A DNA stretch of 52,225 nucleotides, taken from the NCBI GenBank assembly GCA_030526155.1, contig JAUNDI010000013.1:1-52225 (forward strand), given 5' to 3'. Origin of the DNA: Bacteroidia bacterium (GTDB lineage: Bacteria > Bacteroidota > Bacteroidia > Bacteroidales > Marinilabiliaceae). Below, in pieces: positions 6,420-12,783 of this stretch. Numbering within the stretch: the stretch's first letter is position 1; each line of letters starts with the position of its first letter. The notes below the pieces were generated by a model. The model searched no databases and was not told the origin of the DNA. It worked only from the letters and a program-made list of their open reading frames with translations. A program made the translations under genes and the position numbers.

Positions 6420-7196
6420 CTATTTAGCGATATTTTCTCTTAGTTCGTTGAGATAAGTATGCATAGCCTCTGTATCCTTATCCTTGATAATCTCCACGAG
6501 ACGGCCAAGCTGATCATGGATACGCTCTACCTGTTCGGGGGTGTATGGGTTGAATAGGATTTCGGTAAGAAGATAATCGTCCTCAGACAACACCCCTTTA
6601 GCGGTATCGAAATGCTTACTAAAAGTAGTACCAGGCGCATCTTGAGGCTTCATACATGCAGCGAATACCATAGAAGACACGAAAGGTATAGATAGAGAGT
6701 AAGCCGTTGTCTCGTCATGACCTTGGAAGGTGTACTCATGGATGTTTAGTCCGAGAGTAGAGTAGAAATCCTTGAAGAACACCTTACCTAGATGGTCGCC
6801 CTCCTTGATAATAATCGCGTGATTTTTACGAAGGTCGCGAAGATTAGCGAAAGTAGGTCCGAACATAGGGTGAGTAGAGACGAAAGGGTGACCAGCCTTC
6901 TCATAGAACTCCTTGAGACCAGTTTTAACAGATGCGATATCACTGATCATACAAGAAGGAGAAAGATAAGGGAGCACCTCCTCGAATGTCTGTATGGTAT
7001 ACTTAAGCGTAACGGCATTGATGAGCAATTCAGGATTGAACTCACGAATCTCCTCGAGAGAAGTCAGTCTACGAGTATTGAATACATACTGTAGTCGAGT
7101 AATCTCCTTATCATATATAGCCACATCGTGCTGTAGGCAAAGAGAATCAGACAATATAGTGCCCATTTTGCCGGCACCTACGATACAAATACGCAT
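6420..7196 (-). CDS. tyrA: Prephenate dehydrogenase
   Basis: Encodes 258 residues. The N-terminus is a Rossmann fold with GAGKMG at 7-12, and STHPMFGPTFAN carries the catalytic His region typical of TyrA (SxHPxFGP). The enzyme would convert prephenate to 4-hydroxyphenylpyruvate with NAD(P)+, the tyrosine branch. There is no ACT domain, and the protein is at the short end for the family. It begins 4 bp after the DAHP synthase/chorismate mutase gene and is last in the operon, sharing the Phe/Tyr-controlled leader upstream of pheA. Confidence 0.92.
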   Translation of the reverse strand: MRICIVGAGKMGTILSDSLCLQHDVAIYDKEITRLQYVFNTRRLTSLEEIREFNPELLINAVTLKYTIQTFEEVLPYLSPSCMISDIASVKTGLKEFYEKAGHPFVSTHPMFGPTFANLRDLRKNHAIIIKEGDHLGKVFFKDFYSTLGLNIHEYTFQGHDETTAYSLSIPFVSSMVFAACMKPQDAPGTTFSKHFDTAKGVLSEDDYLLTEILFNPYTPEQVERIHDQLGRLVEIIKDKDTEAMHTYLNELRENIAK

Positions 7197-7200
7197 AAGA

Positions 7201-8292
7201 TTACTTCTTTGATGACAACTCCTTCATGATATTATTCTGGATATTAACTGACTCCTCGTGAATATCCTCGAATACCTTGATAACAAAATCTGCGTTAAGA
7301 TTATTAGCCTCAGCCTGCTTACGACGAGTATTAAGAATCTCCTCATAACGACGAGCCTGGAGGACTGTGATATTATTTTCGAACTTATACTTACCGATAG
7401 CTGCAGATACCTTCATACGCTCGCTAAATATTTGGAGGAGCTTAGCATCTAGCTCATCGATTTTTTGGCGAAGGTCGTCGATTTCAGTACGAGGCTTATC
7501 GCCGATAGTATGATCACGGAGAACGATGCCATCGAGAATCATCTTAAGGTGAGCAGGAGTAACCTGTTGCTTAGCATCAGACCAAGCGCGAGCAGGGCAC
7601 TCGTGGCTCTCGATGATAAGGCCATCGAAGTTAAGGTCCATAGCCTGCTGAGAGACCTCTGCGATAAGATCGCAATTACCTGTAATGTGAGAAGGGTCGG
7701 TAATGATAGGGAGGTTAGGGATACGGCGATGGAGCTCGATAGGAATTTGCCACTGAGGGTGATTACGGAACTGAGACTTCTCGTACTGAGAGAAACCGCG
7801 GTGAATAGCAGCGAGTTTTTTGATACCTGCACGATTTAGGCGTTCGAAAGCGCCAATCCACAACTCGAGGTCGGGATTCACTGGATTCTTCACCAAAACA
7901 GGGATATCAGTACCACGGAGAGCGTCGGCAATCTCTTGTACGGCGAAAGGGTTAGCAGTAGTACGAGCGCCGATCCATAGGATATCTACACCATATTTGA
8001 TAGCCTCGTAGCAATGCTTAGCGGTAGCAACCTCACAACCCACGTACATACCTGTCTCCTTTTTTACACGTTGGAGCCAAGGGAGGCCCTCCACGCCAAC
8101 ACCCTCGAAAGCACCTGGACGAGTACGAGGCTTCCAAATGCCTGCACGGAATATTTTAACGCCATTCTGAGCGAGCTCAGTAGCTGTATTCATAACTTGT
8201 TCTTCGGTCTCAGCCGAACATGGACCTGCGATTACGAGAGGACGTTTAGCCTCTATACCAGGGAGCAAAATTGATTCTAACTCTAGTTCCAT
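7201..8292 (-). CDS. Bifunctional DAHP synthase / chorismate mutase
   Basis: Encodes 363 residues. The N-terminal two thirds is a type I-beta (KDO8P-like) DAHP synthase: AGPCSAE at 22-28, KPRTRPGAFEGVG, ADALRGTDIPVLVKNP and ITDPSHITGN. The C-terminal part from about residue 265 is an AroQ chorismate mutase: LRQKIDELDAKLL, IGKYKFENN, ARRYEEIL and EESVNIQ. It would condense PEP with erythrose 4-phosphate to start the shikimate pathway and also turn chorismate into prephenate. The fusion is common in Bacteroidetes and Bacillus-type bacteria; the mutase domain often gives allosteric control. Operon neighbours cover the remaining steps to Phe and Tyr. Confidence 0.95.
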   Translation of the reverse strand: MELELESILLPGIEAKRPLVIAGPCSAETEEQVMNTATELAQNGVKIFRAGIWKPRTRPGAFEGVGVEGLPWLQRVKKETGMYVGCEVATAKHCYEAIKYGVDILWIGARTTANPFAVQEIADALRGTDIPVLVKNPVNPDLELWIGAFERLNRAGIKKLAAIHRGFSQYEKSQFRNHPQWQIPIELHRRIPNLPIITDPSHITGNCDLIAEVSQQAMDLNFDGLIIESHECPARAWSDAKQQVTPAHLKMILDGIVLRDHTIGDKPRTEIDDLRQKIDELDAKLLQIFSERMKVSAAIGKYKFENNITVLQARRYEEILNTRRKQAEANNLNADFVIKVFEDIHEESVNIQNNIMKELSSKK

Positions 8293-8383: not shown

Positions 8384-9547
8384 TTATAATTCTAGTTTTT
8401 TGATACGAGCGAGAGCCTCGTTGAAGACCTCCACCTTAGCGCAAAGAGAGATACGGATGAAGCGATCGCCCTGAGAGCCGAAGATGAAGCCAGGAGTAAT
8501 GAAGACACCTGTGCCGAAGAGAACCTTATCAGATAGCTCCTCGCCATTCTTATACTTATCAGGCACGCGAGCCCATACGAAGAGGCCACCTTGATTTTTA
8601 TCGAAAGAGCAACCGAGAGCCTCCATGATAGCGAAAGCAGACTGTTGACGCTCGCGATATTTAGCATTAAGATCAGCGAACCACTCCTTATCAAGTTTAA
8701 GAGCCTCCACTGCTGCAAGCTGCATAGGCTTAAATACGCCCGAGTCCATATTCGACTTAACACGGAGGACTACGTTAATGATATCAGCATTAGAAGCAGC
8801 CATACCGAAACGCCATCCAGCCATATTATGAGCCTTAGACATTGAGTTAAGCTCGATAGCTACATCCTTAGCCCCTGGGATAGATAGAAGAGATATAGGC
8901 TCCTTGTGGAGGATGAAGCTATAAGGGTTATCATTACAGATAAGGATATTATGCTTACGGCCGAAGTCTACTATTTTTTGGTAGAGCTCCATTGTTGCTG
9001 GAGCACCGGTAGGCATATTAGGGTAATTGATCCACATAAGCTTTACGCCAGAGAGATCAAGTTTTTCTAGTTCGTCGAAATCAGGCTGCCAGTTTATGTG
9101 CTCGTACAATTTGTACTTATATACTTTAGCGCCGACGAGGTTAGATACTGAAGAGTATGTAGGGTAACCAGGATCAGGCACAAGGACGCCATCGCCAGGG
9201 TTAAGGAAAGCCATAGAGATATGGAAAATACCCTCCTTAGAACCTATGAGAGGAAGGATTTCTGTCTTAGGGTCGAGTTGCACGCCATAAGAGCGATTAT
9301 ACCACTCAGCATAACCCTCACGAAGGGCAGGGATGCCCACGTAAGATTGATAACCATGAGCATTAGGTTGGGCAGCAGCCTCGGCTAGAGTATTGATAAC
9401 ATTAGCAGGAGGAGGCATATCAGGGCTACCGATACCTAGATTAATAACATCTACGCCCTTAGAGCGGAGGTCGTCCAAGCGACGATTATTTCGCGAGAAG
9501 TAGTACTCTTGTACGTTAGCTACGCGTTGTGCTGGTTCTATTATCAT
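8384..9547 (-). CDS. Class I/II PLP aminotransferase, probably aromatic
   Basis: Encodes 387 residues, normal for fold-type I aminotransferases. INLGIGSPDMPPP is the substrate-clamping start, ICNDNPYSFIL carries the PLP-ring Asp and Tyr, and NSMSKAHNMAGWRFGMA carries the Schiff-base Lys (near residue 235). FIRISLCAK supplies the carboxylate-binding Arg. It resembles AspC/DapL-like enzymes; sequence alone does not fix the substrate. Its place between pheA and the chorismate mutase fusion argues for transamination of phenylpyruvate and 4-hydroxyphenylpyruvate. It starts 33 bp after pheA and has 91 bp before the next gene. Confidence 0.9.
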   Translation of the reverse strand: MIIEPAQRVANVQEYYFSRNNRRLDDLRSKGVDVINLGIGSPDMPPPANVINTLAEAAAQPNAHGYQSYVGIPALREGYAEWYNRSYGVQLDPKTEILPLIGSKEGIFHISMAFLNPGDGVLVPDPGYPTYSSVSNLVGAKVYKYKLYEHINWQPDFDELEKLDLSGVKLMWINYPNMPTGAPATMELYQKIVDFGRKHNILICNDNPYSFILHKEPISLLSIPGAKDVAIELNSMSKAHNMAGWRFGMAASNADIINVVLRVKSNMDSGVFKPMQLAAVEALKLDKEWFADLNAKYRERQQSAFAIMEALGCSFDKNQGGLFVWARVPDKYKNGEELSDKVLFGTGVFITPGFIFGSQGDRFIRISLCAKVEVFNEALARIKKLEL

Positions 9548-9580
9548 TGTGCTGTATGAATTTGCTATTAGTGTTTAGGA

Positions 9581-10444
9581 TTACTCTTCGTGACTTTGGC
9601 GACCGAGTTGGTATTCACCCAAGACCTTGAGGGTGCCACATAGTGGGCGTACTGCGTCGAGAGCCTGCACGTAACGAGTATAGTTATCGAAAGTAAGGTC
9701 GATATAGAAGATATATTCCCATTCGTGCCCTACTACTGGGTTGGACTGGATTTTAGAGAGGTTAAGTCCGTAGAAAGCGAGCACCGTAAGGATCTTAGAA
9801 AGGGAACCCACCTCGCGAGCTTGAGGGAGGGTGAACACTACAGAAGAGCGATTGATAAGATTCTTCTTTAGTTGCTCCTCTATCTCTAGGTGAGCTGGAT
9901 CCTCCTTAACTACTAGGAAGCGTGTAAAATTCTTCTTATTAGTCTCGATACCCTTAGCAAGGATGTTCAAGCCATAGAGGTTAGCTGCTATTTTAGGAGC
10001 GATAGCGCCTACATGCTTGAGACCCTTATCGGCTACCTCTTTTGCTGAGAGGGCGGTATCGTCGGACTCTATAAGGCGGATATTAGGGTATTTGCGGAAG
10101 AAAGGAGCGCATTGAGCGAGAGCCATAGGGTGAGAATGTACCTCGGTAAGGTCCTCTATTTTGACACCAGGGAGGGCCATAAGGTTGTGTTTGATACGGA
10201 GTTTGTATTCGCCAATTACGGTCAACCCGCTTTCGTGGAGGAGAGTATAATTAGCATTAATAGAACCCACCAATGTATTTTCTATGGCTACGATACCGTA
10301 GAGAGAGTTGTCATCTCGCACAGCTTGGAAGAGATCCTGGAAAGTGGTACAAGGTACGACCTGTACCTCTTCGCCTTGGAAGTATTCCTCGGCTGCGATT
10401 TGGTGATTAGCACCCTCTACACCTTGTATAGCTACTCGTTTCAT
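9581..10444 (-). CDS. pheA: Prephenate dehydratase
   Basis: Encodes 287 residues. The catalytic domain shows VAIQGVEGANHQIAAEE, the VAIENTLVGSI loop, EVHSHPMALAQC and NFTRFLVV (TRF motif). A C-terminal ACT domain follows from about residue 200 (FTLPQAREVGSLSKIL, WEYIFYIDL). It converts prephenate to phenylpyruvate. The usual Phe-binding ESRP motif reads QSNP here, so allosteric behaviour may differ from the E. coli form. It is the first structural gene of the operon, about 50 nt after an attenuator-type terminator. Confidence 0.93.
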   Translation of the reverse strand: MKRVAIQGVEGANHQIAAEEYFQGEEVQVVPCTTFQDLFQAVRDDNSLYGIVAIENTLVGSINANYTLLHESGLTVIGEYKLRIKHNLMALPGVKIEDLTEVHSHPMALAQCAPFFRKYPNIRLIESDDTALSAKEVADKGLKHVGAIAPKIAANLYGLNILAKGIETNKKNFTRFLVVKEDPAHLEIEEQLKKNLINRSSVVFTLPQAREVGSLSKILTVLAFYGLNLSKIQSNPVVGHEWEYIFYIDLTFDNYTRYVQALDAVRPLCGTLKVLGEYQLGRQSHEE

Positions 10445-10481
10445 TTACTATTATATATTCAAATTCCCTTTCGGAGTAAAA

Positions 10482-10525
10482 TGTCTAAAAAGAAAGCTCA
10501 CTCGAACTATTGTCCAGTGAGCTTT
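10482..10525 (-). terminator. Attenuator terminator of the Phe/Tyr operon
   Basis: On the minus strand AAAGCTCACT (10525 to 10516) pairs with AGTGAGCTTT (10502 to 10493) across a 13-nt loop and is followed by CTTTTTAG. It sits between the leader peptide and pheA. GCTCACTG in its 5' arm (10522 to 10515) is also perfectly complementary to CAGTGAGC at 10576 to 10569, which overlaps the leader stop codon. The two pairings exclude each other, as in classic attenuators. Confidence 0.85.
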
Positions 10526-10570
10526 GTTTTATTGTCTTGTGCCTTATAAGCATCGACTAAGGTATATCGC

Positions 10571-10639
10571 TCACTGCTCTTCTGGTAGGTAACCAAAAAA
10601 GTAAAAGGAATAACCGTAGTAAAATCGCTTATTTGACAT
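10571..10639 (-). CDS. Phe/Tyr leader peptide (attenuation)
   Basis: A 22-codon ORF starting ATG at 10639 and ending TGA at 10573-10571. The product includes FYYGYSFYFFGY (residues 6-17), so nine of twelve consecutive codons are Phe or Tyr. It lies in the 5' leader of the pheA-aminotransferase-aroF/CM-tyrA operon. Its stop codon overlaps the segment CAGTGAGC that can pair with the terminator 5' arm. When charged tRNA-Phe or tRNA-Tyr is scarce, a ribosome stalled on these codons would leave that segment free to form the antiterminator. When translation reaches the stop codon, the segment is masked and the terminator forms. It is too short for routine gene callers. Confidence 0.88.
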   Translation of the reverse strand: MSNKRFYYGYSFYFFGYLPEEQ

Positions 10640-10696
10640 AGCTTATTGATATCTAATTGTCCTTTTTGTTGCTGATTTATTATCTTACAACGATTA

Positions 10697-10704
10697 CAAA
10701 GTTA
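10697..10704 (-). promoter_or_regulatory. -7 element of the Phe/Tyr operon promoter
   Basis: TAACTTTG on the minus strand matches TAnnTTTG. It would start transcription near 10690, giving a leader of about 245 nt that contains the leader peptide and attenuator. No good -33 TTTG was found at the expected distance. Confidence 0.5.
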
Positions 10705-10794
10705 CAAACTATTTTTGAACTACCGCGTCTTGATGATAAAAAAGTGACAAAAAGGGTAAAATTAAGTATAATACGTAGCTTATGACACTTTGGG

Positions 10795-12783
10795 TTAATC
10801 CTCGAAATAGACCTTGTCTATTTGTACGGTTTTGCCGCCAAAGGTCCAGAAGCCTATGATATTAATAGTCTTTGTATTAAATGCGCGAATAGTACCACCA
10901 TTCCACTTGTCAGGGATGGTTTCCTTCATATCGGCAATAGGGATACGCACCTCATCTGTGCTAGTAATATCTACTTGATAGCATTCGTCATAATAACCTT
11001 GGTCGAAAAGGCGGAATGAAGGACCACCTGTGAAGTCTGTCTTATCGCCAAGTTTTACTACGATATACTTATGCATAGATATATCCATGGCGTCGAACTT
11101 CCAGCCAGCGAAACCATATTGTCCTGTTGTGAAACATCTATTCTCCTCGTCGAAAGTACCTTCTCCACAAATATTTACATCGAAGACATCGCTAGTTACG
11201 CGGAATAGATTAGAGTAGTCGACATGAGGGACTACCACCTTAACAGACACCTCCTTACCGAGAGCCTTAGCGGTAATGGTTGTTTCGCCCTCTTCGACAG
11301 CTATAACTTGAGAGCCATCGACACGAACGATAGAGGCATCATCAGAAGAGAGTTCTACGCCGGTCTGTAGAGGGAATACTGCGTTGTCGCGGATAGCGTT
11401 AACGATAATCTCCTTAGAGGCGCCCTTAGAGAGACGGAGTTCTGTTGTCTTGAGACCAAGTTTAAGATAATCGGCAGACTCAGGCTGTACGTTACCCTTA
11501 GCATACTCCTCGTACCAATGGTATATTTGCCAAGGGCAGCATTCAGGGTCGTTCCAATAATTAGTATATCCAGCTTGAGACTCTGTAGGATAGAGAGTAA
11601 GATCTCTAGGGTCTGTAAATGTGATATAACTTACGTTGCCACACTTATCCATGATGTACTTAAAGTTGGCACCAAAACCAGCACCACCAGCAAGGCCTGT
11701 AAAACTCTTACCCCAAGTTTTGTTGTACTTAGCGGCAGCCCAGTCCATCTCAGTAATCATGATAGGGTGAAGCTCAGCAGCTGCAGCTATGCTACTATTC
11801 CAACCACCTTGGAAAGCCTCGTAGCCGCCGCCTACGCCCTCGCCCATGTTACCGCCATTCTCGCCGGTAGAAGACTCGGCGTCGCTACCATACCAACCTG
11901 GGTAGCAGTGAACGGCGAAACCGAGGTTATCGCCCTTTAGAGGGTACTTTACGAAAGAGTTATACTCCTGCTGCCAAGTGAGGCCAGGTACCCATATGAT
12001 ATTCTTACAATTATAGCGAATAAGATCTATGAAATGCTGCATGTAACGAGATACAGCCTTACTACGATCGCCGCCGTCTGCGCTAGCATCTATGCTCACA
12101 GGCTCATTGATAAGTTCGAACATCACATCGCCATTATTACGGATGTATGGATGAGAGCTAAAGTAAGACCACATAGACTCGAGCATCTTAAAGAAGTTAT
12201 CGCCATACTTAAGAGGCTGATCATTTTCTTCGCCACAAGGATATGGACGAAGGACCACGTAGAGCCCCTTAGAGTTGCAATGCTTAATGATAGGGAGATA
12301 TACCTTTTCGAAATATTCCTTCATGAGAGACTCAGAGAAATAGTCAGATACTGGAGTCTTTTGAGGGCGACCATCGCGAACGAACCAATAAGGGTCGAGG
12401 TGCATACGTAAGAAATCTACCTTTAGTCCGCTAGCTATTACGCCATCGATGATACGCTTATTATAGGTTACGCAACCCTCATAATCCTTACCGCCCCAGT
12501 TGTTCTCATTGTATTGGCCACTATTAAACCACCATGTGTAAGTCTGCCAAAAACCGTGGAGATTAACATGATTACCATTAGCATCGCAAAGCCAACGACC
12601 CTCGGTGTGGAGGATTGGGAGAGTACCGTAGAGATCGGAATTGTTTGGGTTAGAAGGCTTGTCGCCAGGCTCGCCTGGAGTTACTTCAGGCTCATTAGGA
12701 TCGTATACGCCTGGTTGGGTATCCTTATCGTCGCAAGAAACGAGAGCAATACACGAGAGTAATGCTATAAAAAGTCTTTTCAT
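10795..12783 (-). CDS. GH5-type glycoside hydrolase lipoprotein
   Basis: Encodes 662 residues. A lipobox (ALVSC, Cys17) is followed by an acidic Pro-rich linker to about residue 50. The catalytic TIM barrel spans about 60-430, with FELINEP (general acid Glu227) and ITEMDW (nucleophile Glu345), the two hallmark glutamates of clan GH-A family 5. A bacterial Ig-like (Big_2-type) domain follows at about 445-530 (DASIVRVDGSQVIAVEEGET), then a beta-rich C-terminal domain that may bind carbohydrate. Likely an endo-acting beta-glucanase or mannanase at the cell surface; the substrate is not fixed. It has its own promoter and is not next to a SusCD pair. Confidence 0.85.
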   Translation of the reverse strand: MKRLFIALLSCIALVSCDDKDTQPGVYDPNEPEVTPGEPGDKPSNPNNSDLYGTLPILHTEGRWLCDANGNHVNLHGFWQTYTWWFNSGQYNENNWGGKDYEGCVTYNKRIIDGVIASGLKVDFLRMHLDPYWFVRDGRPQKTPVSDYFSESLMKEYFEKVYLPIIKHCNSKGLYVVLRPYPCGEENDQPLKYGDNFFKMLESMWSYFSSHPYIRNNGDVMFELINEPVSIDASADGGDRSKAVSRYMQHFIDLIRYNCKNIIWVPGLTWQQEYNSFVKYPLKGDNLGFAVHCYPGWYGSDAESSTGENGGNMGEGVGGGYEAFQGGWNSSIAAAAELHPIMITEMDWAAAKYNKTWGKSFTGLAGGAGFGANFKYIMDKCGNVSYITFTDPRDLTLYPTESQAGYTNYWNDPECCPWQIYHWYEEYAKGNVQPESADYLKLGLKTTELRLSKGASKEIIVNAIRDNAVFPLQTGVELSSDDASIVRVDGSQVIAVEEGETTITAKALGKEVSVKVVVPHVDYSNLFRVTSDVFDVNICGEGTFDEENRCFTTGQYGFAGWKFDAMDISMHKYIVVKLGDKTDFTGGPSFRLFDQGYYDECYQVDITSTDEVRIPIADMKETIPDKWNGGTIRAFNTKTINIIGFWTFGGKTVQIDKVYFED

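Follow-up and report, generated by a model that had tools for sequence, protein, structure and literature searches.

The pheA leader and its operon

The window analysed here, a 52,225-nucleotide (nt) stretch at positions 1 to 52,225 of contig JAUNDI010000013.1 from a Bacteroidia bacterium (Marinilabiliaceae), carries on its minus strand an operon that yields phenylalanine (Phe) and tyrosine (Tyr), and our subject is the leader in front of this operon. The first gene that the leader would regulate is pheA, encoding prephenate dehydratase (9581..10444; its ACT match falls under the Pfam cut-off). It is followed on the same strand by a class I/II aminotransferase gene (8384..9547), a gene for DAHP synthase with type II chorismate mutase (7201..8292) and tyrA, which encodes prephenate dehydrogenase and has an NAD-binding domain match (6420..7196). 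An initial annotation had named these genes and had proposed that a leader peptide rich in Phe and Tyr codons controls them through mutually exclusive hairpins; domain matches uphold the gene identities.

The leader peptide open reading frame (ORF) of 22 codons was located exactly where it had been predicted (10571..10639, minus strand, as are all leader features), encoding MSNKRFYYGYSFYFFGYLPEEQ before its stop codon. Its putative regulatory Phe/Tyr codons run from F6 to Y17 (FYYGYSFYFFGY, 10589..10624). Overlapping the TGA stop of the leader is the 5' strand of an antiterminator, CAGTGAGC (strand 2, 10569..10576), and its 8-bp partner GCTCACTG (strand 3, 10515..10522) was likewise found in the position claimed for it. 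Strand 3 is common to this 2:3 duplex and to an intrinsic terminator hairpin, in which its second partner is AGTGAGC (strand 4, 10502-10496); the hairpin AAAGCTCACTGGACAATAGTTCGAGTGAGCTTT occupies 10493..10525, was called by a fold-based search at -16.9 kcal/mol, and is directly followed by CTTTTT within a T-rich tail (TTTCTTTTT, 10487..10495). The terminator and T-tract had been placed at 10525-10482, and while both are present, their extent is more precisely given by the hairpin at 10525-10493 and the tail at 10495-10487. A simple pattern scan of 10300-10900 returned no terminators, perhaps because of a bulge in the stem and a broken T-run, and the fold-based search was therefore adopted. 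The distance from the leader stop to the start of pheA is 126 nt, with the terminator and its tail in between.

Upstream of the leader ORF, the motif TAACTTTG (10697..10704) fits TAnnTTTG, the -7 promoter consensus of Bacteroidetes, which would place the transcription start near 10691. The best 2:3 duplex of the window reaches -15.4 kcal/mol; among the other distinct strand-3 sequences, about 1% form a stronger duplex with its strand 2. The 227-nt leader as a whole folds at -52.9 kcal/mol (z = -4.2), a value equalled by none of 200 dinucleotide shuffles. Folding also suggests a candidate 1:2 pause hairpin, CTTTTTTGGT with ACCAGAAGAG (10577..10601), which reaches from the last Phe codons as far as the purine run ahead of strand 2.

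Conservation of the leader peptide and its reach

For comparison, 242 pheA loci were collected by PheA searches of the relatives of the window's genome and of named genomes, and 194 were kept after demanding at least 300 nt of upstream sequence and distinct last 250 nt. Because loci were recruited through similarity to the PheA of the window, near relatives are over-represented. Some locus records bear other labels (L109, for example, is labelled Sericytochromatia). A leader ORF was scored when at least 6 Phe/Tyr residues fell within 10 residues, at most 400 nt upstream of pheA. Such an ORF precedes pheA in 169 of the 194 loci, and still in 157 and 128 when 7 and 8 such residues are demanded. 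Ten sets of shuffled sequences gave mean counts of 7.4, 0.8 and 0.2 at these three thresholds, the antisense strand gave 6, 2 and 0, and 608 upstream regions of other genes from such loci gave 10 at threshold 6 and 4 at threshold 7, two of these four being pheA's own leaders that slipped past the filter (L053 and L234). The possibility of a chance ORF was rejected on these numbers.

The codons themselves are conserved as well. Among single-base differences at Phe/Tyr codons, counted over 295 non-independent pairs of similar leaders, Phe or Tyr was retained in 526 of 567, and for differences at the third position in 378 of 389. This indicates selection on the codons, and hence that the leader ORF is very likely translated. 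With this, the earlier expectation that the leader ORF would recur in related bacteria was borne out. Tryptophan was seen in the core of 41 of the 170 distinct leaders (42 of 2284 residues), an uncontrolled count from which no Trp sensing is claimed.

We defined a complete unit as leader, antiterminator and terminator together, and found it in 161 of the 194 loci. With the leader accepted up to 600 nt upstream, leader and complete unit were present in 60 and 59 of the 60 loci that belong to the window's family, in 57 and 55 of 63 loci from other families of the order, in 29 and 24 of 31 from other orders of the class, in 22 and 20 of 37 named records from outside the family, and in all three loci (3 and 3) from other classes of the phylum that rank high in PheA similarity. 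The order sample excluded matched genomes for which no stretch was retrieved (G042, G111 and others ending at a contig end), and the phylum sample covered 75 of the 138 pheA genomes (the window's own plus 29, 5 and 40), the other 63 being left out. Only two of the 40 more distant pheA loci, 39 from other classes and one from the same class, carry a leader, namely L250 and L268, the latter belonging to the window's own class. A phylum-wide element was rejected on this result and the claim was narrowed to the class: within the sample, the element is frequent in the window's class (Bacteroidia by record titles) and rare elsewhere. L250, from outside the class, has a clear Phe/Tyr leader, MTKNFSTYSPFFYFGYFYFIYPKKGTCMVLR, which the 38 other loci from distant classes do not.

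For operon content, same-strand tblastn hits were scored wherever 4.5 kb or more of downstream sequence was available, in 81 of the 194 loci; the window's own short locus is not one of the 81. A complete unit was found in 65 of the 70 loci with an aminotransferase, DAHP synthase or tyrA gene downstream on the same strand, and in 1 of the 11 without. The element thus travels with the aromatic operon. The loci where pheA stands without a partner gene include L096, L097, L098, L099, L115 and L117, among others, and 10 of these 11 have no complete unit. The promoter motif recurs too. In 157 of the 161 loci TAnnTTTG was counted: 128 of the 157 have it in the 90 nt that precede the leader start, compared with 3 in a control stretch 210-300 nt upstream.

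Covariation of the two exclusive stems

In the fold-based search, a terminator hairpin with a folding energy of -5 kcal/mol or lower follows 187 of 197 leader ORFs. A strand after the last Phe/Tyr codon forms a 2:3 duplex with the 5' arm of the terminator, at -8 kcal/mol or lower, in 177 of the 186 units tested. When the 5' arms were swapped among 185 units, each unit's own 2:3 pairing averaged -13.9 kcal/mol and the exchanged pairings -9.1 kcal/mol. The double-centred statistic of this swap test was -4.77 (permutation sd, standard deviation, 0.20; best of 2000 permutations -0.75), although the search for strand 2 began 30 nt before the stop and missed it in leaders extending beyond, which weakens the result.

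Compensatory changes, on which the proposal of two exclusive stems depended, are present in both. In an alignment of 57 rows from the window's family (of its 59 references, the near-duplicates L044 and L185 were omitted, and L026 gave no usable terminator call), the antiterminator has 37 double-change cells against 14.4 in shuffles, with three of eight pairs changing on both sides, and the terminator has 80 against 28.9, with six of nine pairs. For both stems, the number of double-change cells and the covariation score were higher than in any of 500 shuffles and in any slid version of the stem. The clearest case by eye lies within the genus, where L001 and its nearest relatives have CAGTGAGC/GCTCACTG/GAGTGAGC as strands 2, 3 and 4, with slight variation in strand 4, and most other members have GGTGGG/CCCACC/GGTGGG, so that the three strands co-vary.

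Ribosome position and nascent folding

Strand 2 begins a median of 16 nt past the first base of the last Phe/Tyr codon with an sd of 4.0, whereas its position relative to the stop codon has an sd of 12.1. Strand 2 is thus anchored to the last Phe/Tyr codon and not to the stop. The leading edge of a ribosome lies 12 nt beyond the first base of the A-site codon. Of 177 units, 155 have a free strand 2 under this footprint when the last Phe/Tyr codon is in the A site, and 170 do if an overlap of 3 nt is allowed. When the stop codon is in the A site, the ribosome covers strand 2 at least in part in 166 of the 177 (all of it in 115), and in 11 it has already passed strand 2. A stall on the regulatory codons is therefore predicted to free strand 2, and arrival at the stop to mask it.

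Constrained folding of the nascent RNA of the window, up to and including strand 3, agrees with this geometry: the 2:3 duplex forms with the ribosome at Y17 (-20.4) and does not form with the ribosome at the stop (-6.2). Modest evidence for the candidate 1:2 pause hairpin comes from the pairing of strand 2 with the leader, which was found in 171 of 177 units compared with 142.0 of 177 in codon-shuffled controls.

Probable attenuation and its alternatives

The following parts of a classical attenuator are in place. A short ORF, very likely translated to judge from its codon conservation, carries regulatory codons for products of the operon; an intrinsic terminator lies between this ORF and the first structural gene; and an antiterminator makes use of one of the terminator strands. 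The element is very probably a ribosome-mediated transcription attenuator like those of trpL and pheL, and the mechanism put forward in the initial annotation is most likely right. According to this model, RNA polymerase would start about 50 nt ahead of the leader ORF with a ribosome trailing it through the Phe/Tyr codons. With an ample supply of charged tRNA-Phe and tRNA-Tyr, the ribosome would proceed to the stop and cover strand 2 (CAGTGAGC), strand 3 would pair with strand 4, and transcription would terminate before pheA, releasing a short RNA. When Phe or Tyr is scarce, the ribosome would stall on the Phe/Tyr codons with strand 2 just beyond its leading edge, and the free strand 2 could pair with strand 3 before strand 4 is synthesized. 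Read-through into pheA would then continue over the aminotransferase, DAHP synthase/chorismate mutase and tyrA genes.

Several observations weigh against this model or limit its scope. At equilibrium the terminator is favoured in all four states, including that with the stalled ribosome, so that antitermination must be kinetic. The nascent RNA without a ribosome also forms the 2:3 duplex, so that a 1:2 stem of the E. coli trp type, which would enforce termination without translation, is no more than a candidate. The three antiterminator pairs with double changes are no more than the 3.0 found in shuffles, another three of its eight pairs depart through unpaired cells only, and 38 of the 57 rows have no pairing at columns 80/145. 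A complete unit is missing from 33 of the 194 loci, including 5 of the 70 with a partner gene. Outside the class the leader is rare: it was found in 1 of the 39 distant loci, although all 3 of the nearer ones have it. Many of the sampled loci are close relatives, and the counts are not independent events.

The codon composition bears on what is sensed. At least two Phe and at least two Tyr codons occur in 189 of 196 leaders, which supports the earlier claim that a single leader reads both amino acids, and it probably does. The Tyr share, however, is 0.41 in the 33 loci with tyrA downstream and 0.40 in the 25 without, so that a rise of the Tyr share by tyrA was rejected and the mix does not simply follow the Tyr branch. 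The alternative that survives best accepts the attenuator as genuine and has it respond in practice to one amino acid, most likely Phe, with the Tyr codons tolerated or serving to tune the stall. It can draw on these equal shares and on the presence of Phe in all 196 leaders while Tyr is absent from three. We consider this alternative possible but rather doubtful, given how regularly both residues occur, that the operon yields both amino acids, and that the geometry predicts an A-site stall at a core Tyr codon to free strand 2 likewise.

It is improbable that the leader acts chiefly on translation or coupling, through re-initiation or RNA decay, instead of on termination. Leader ORFs are widespread in bacteria and able to act through re-initiation, according to PMC4833913, but the Bacteroidetes peak given there is at 11-14 bp, while here pheA starts 126 nt past the leader stop with a terminator and T-rich tail intervening.

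Less probable still is that a T-box, a metabolite riboswitch or a protein-binding leader shares the terminator and that the ORF is secondary. A structured leader with exclusive hairpins would resemble such an element at its 3' end, but strand 2 tracks the last Phe/Tyr codon, and neither the window nor any of eight related loci has an Rfam match at gathering score. A permissive search of 9500-11500 against all Rfam families, at E up to 10, returned three hits, all far under their gathering scores and none of them Phe_leader (RF01859); the T-box family had no match in this search or in the gathering-score search of the window and the eight loci. A T-box, a riboswitch and a known Rfam leader were rejected on this absence of matches.

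Finally, it is scarcely credible that the hairpin is a mere terminator of the upstream glycoside hydrolase gene (10795-12783, minus strand; GH5 cellulase family, Pfam PF00150, lipoprotein-like by eye) and the small ORF a product of chance, since, even though that gene precedes the leader on the same strand with its end 155 nt away and leader ORFs are short and AT-rich, distant relatives, too, have the leader codons, the promoter motif and the two stems ahead of pheA, 10 of the 11 pheA loci without partner genes lack the complete unit as well, and the codon and covariation tests contradict this as the sole explanation.

Tandem units in relatives

Two complete units in series precede pheA in 16 of the 194 loci, that is, in 16 of the 161 with a complete unit (L130, L132, L133, L085, L088, L089, L108, L105, L126, L151, L154, L208, L216, L224, L232 and L235). 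L085 and L088 are near-duplicates, and the 16 loci cover at least eight family labels. Within the window's own family, no locus among the 60 has two complete units. Of the 16 tandem loci, 13 have TAnnTTTG ahead of the first unit and none has it between the two, so that the second unit is probably reached only via read-through of the first. A division of labour, with one unit for Phe and the other for Tyr, was rejected, as the mean Tyr share is 0.46 in the first unit and 0.43 in the second. Two Phe/Tyr leader ORFs were also seen in L268.

On balance, we lean towards a class-wide attenuator that senses Phe and Tyr jointly via one mixed-codon leader and that, where it is doubled in several lineages, would form a two-step multiplicative gate at the entrance to aromatic amino acid synthesis, with both units behind one promoter.

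Relation to known systems and significance

The E. coli and Salmonella systems pheL-pheA, pheM-pheST and trpL are leader-peptide attenuators (Rfam Phe_leader, RF01859, and Trp_leader, RF00513). Like them, the element described here has a short ORF with end-product codons before a biosynthetic operon and an antiterminator and terminator with a common strand. In contrast to pheL and trpL, its leader has both Phe and Tyr codons in quantity; unlike in the E. coli and Salmonella leaders, strand 2 overlaps the end and stop of the leader, there is no clear strong 1:2 protector, and the operon also includes tyrA and DAHP synthase/chorismate mutase. Single leader peptides that read several amino acids are found before E. 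coli ilvGMEDA and ilvB, which likewise serve a branched pathway but concern branched-chain amino acids in Proteobacteria.

Bacteroid-trp RNA (RF01692) is a leader-peptide element and, like the present one, a candidate cis-regulatory leader in Bacteroidetes, but with Trp codons and tryptophan genes. This family had no match in the window's genome at E 0.001, with 150 of 241 first-look candidates scored, while the control genome Bacteroides ihuae does match it. In the window's genome, trpE is nevertheless preceded by a leader ORF, MKNMSLIWWRWQLPSRVRR (L244:1276-1335, plus strand, contig C57), with the Trp codons of IWWRW and, by eye, a terminator; a by-eye look at the sequence upstream of hisG showed no His leader.

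In the literature, Bacteroid-trp RNA is among the elements listed by Weinberg 2010 (PMC2864571). In Flavobacterium psychrophilum, a structured 5' element without an Rfam hit precedes pheA and is also present in other genera of Flavobacteriaceae, and strong indications of leader-peptide attenuation ahead of amino-acid operons are reported with it (PMC9723704); the section on the pheA element gives no leader peptide, codons, mechanism, Bacteroidales or tandem copies. For B. thetaiotaomicron 5' untranslated regions, leader-like small ORFs are mentioned, and pheA is absent from the text of that source (PMC7366714). Among the papers listed by searches of the open full-text literature, we found no description of this Phe/Tyr leader, though Lopatovskaya 2010 might already list Bacteroidetes pheA, and no mention of tandem Phe/Tyr attenuators, a question barely probed in that literature.

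The probable mechanism, leader-peptide attenuation, is a classical one; what is new is a family that is widespread in the class and has no Rfam entry, and, to a greater degree, its tandem form in relatives. With this element, the main aromatic operon in a large class of bacteria from the gut and the environment would have a defined control mechanism, and Rfam would gain a family that it lacks. Its mixed Phe/Tyr codons and its tandem form may serve as a natural experiment on how two amino acids are integrated by one leader and on what a second attenuator adds.
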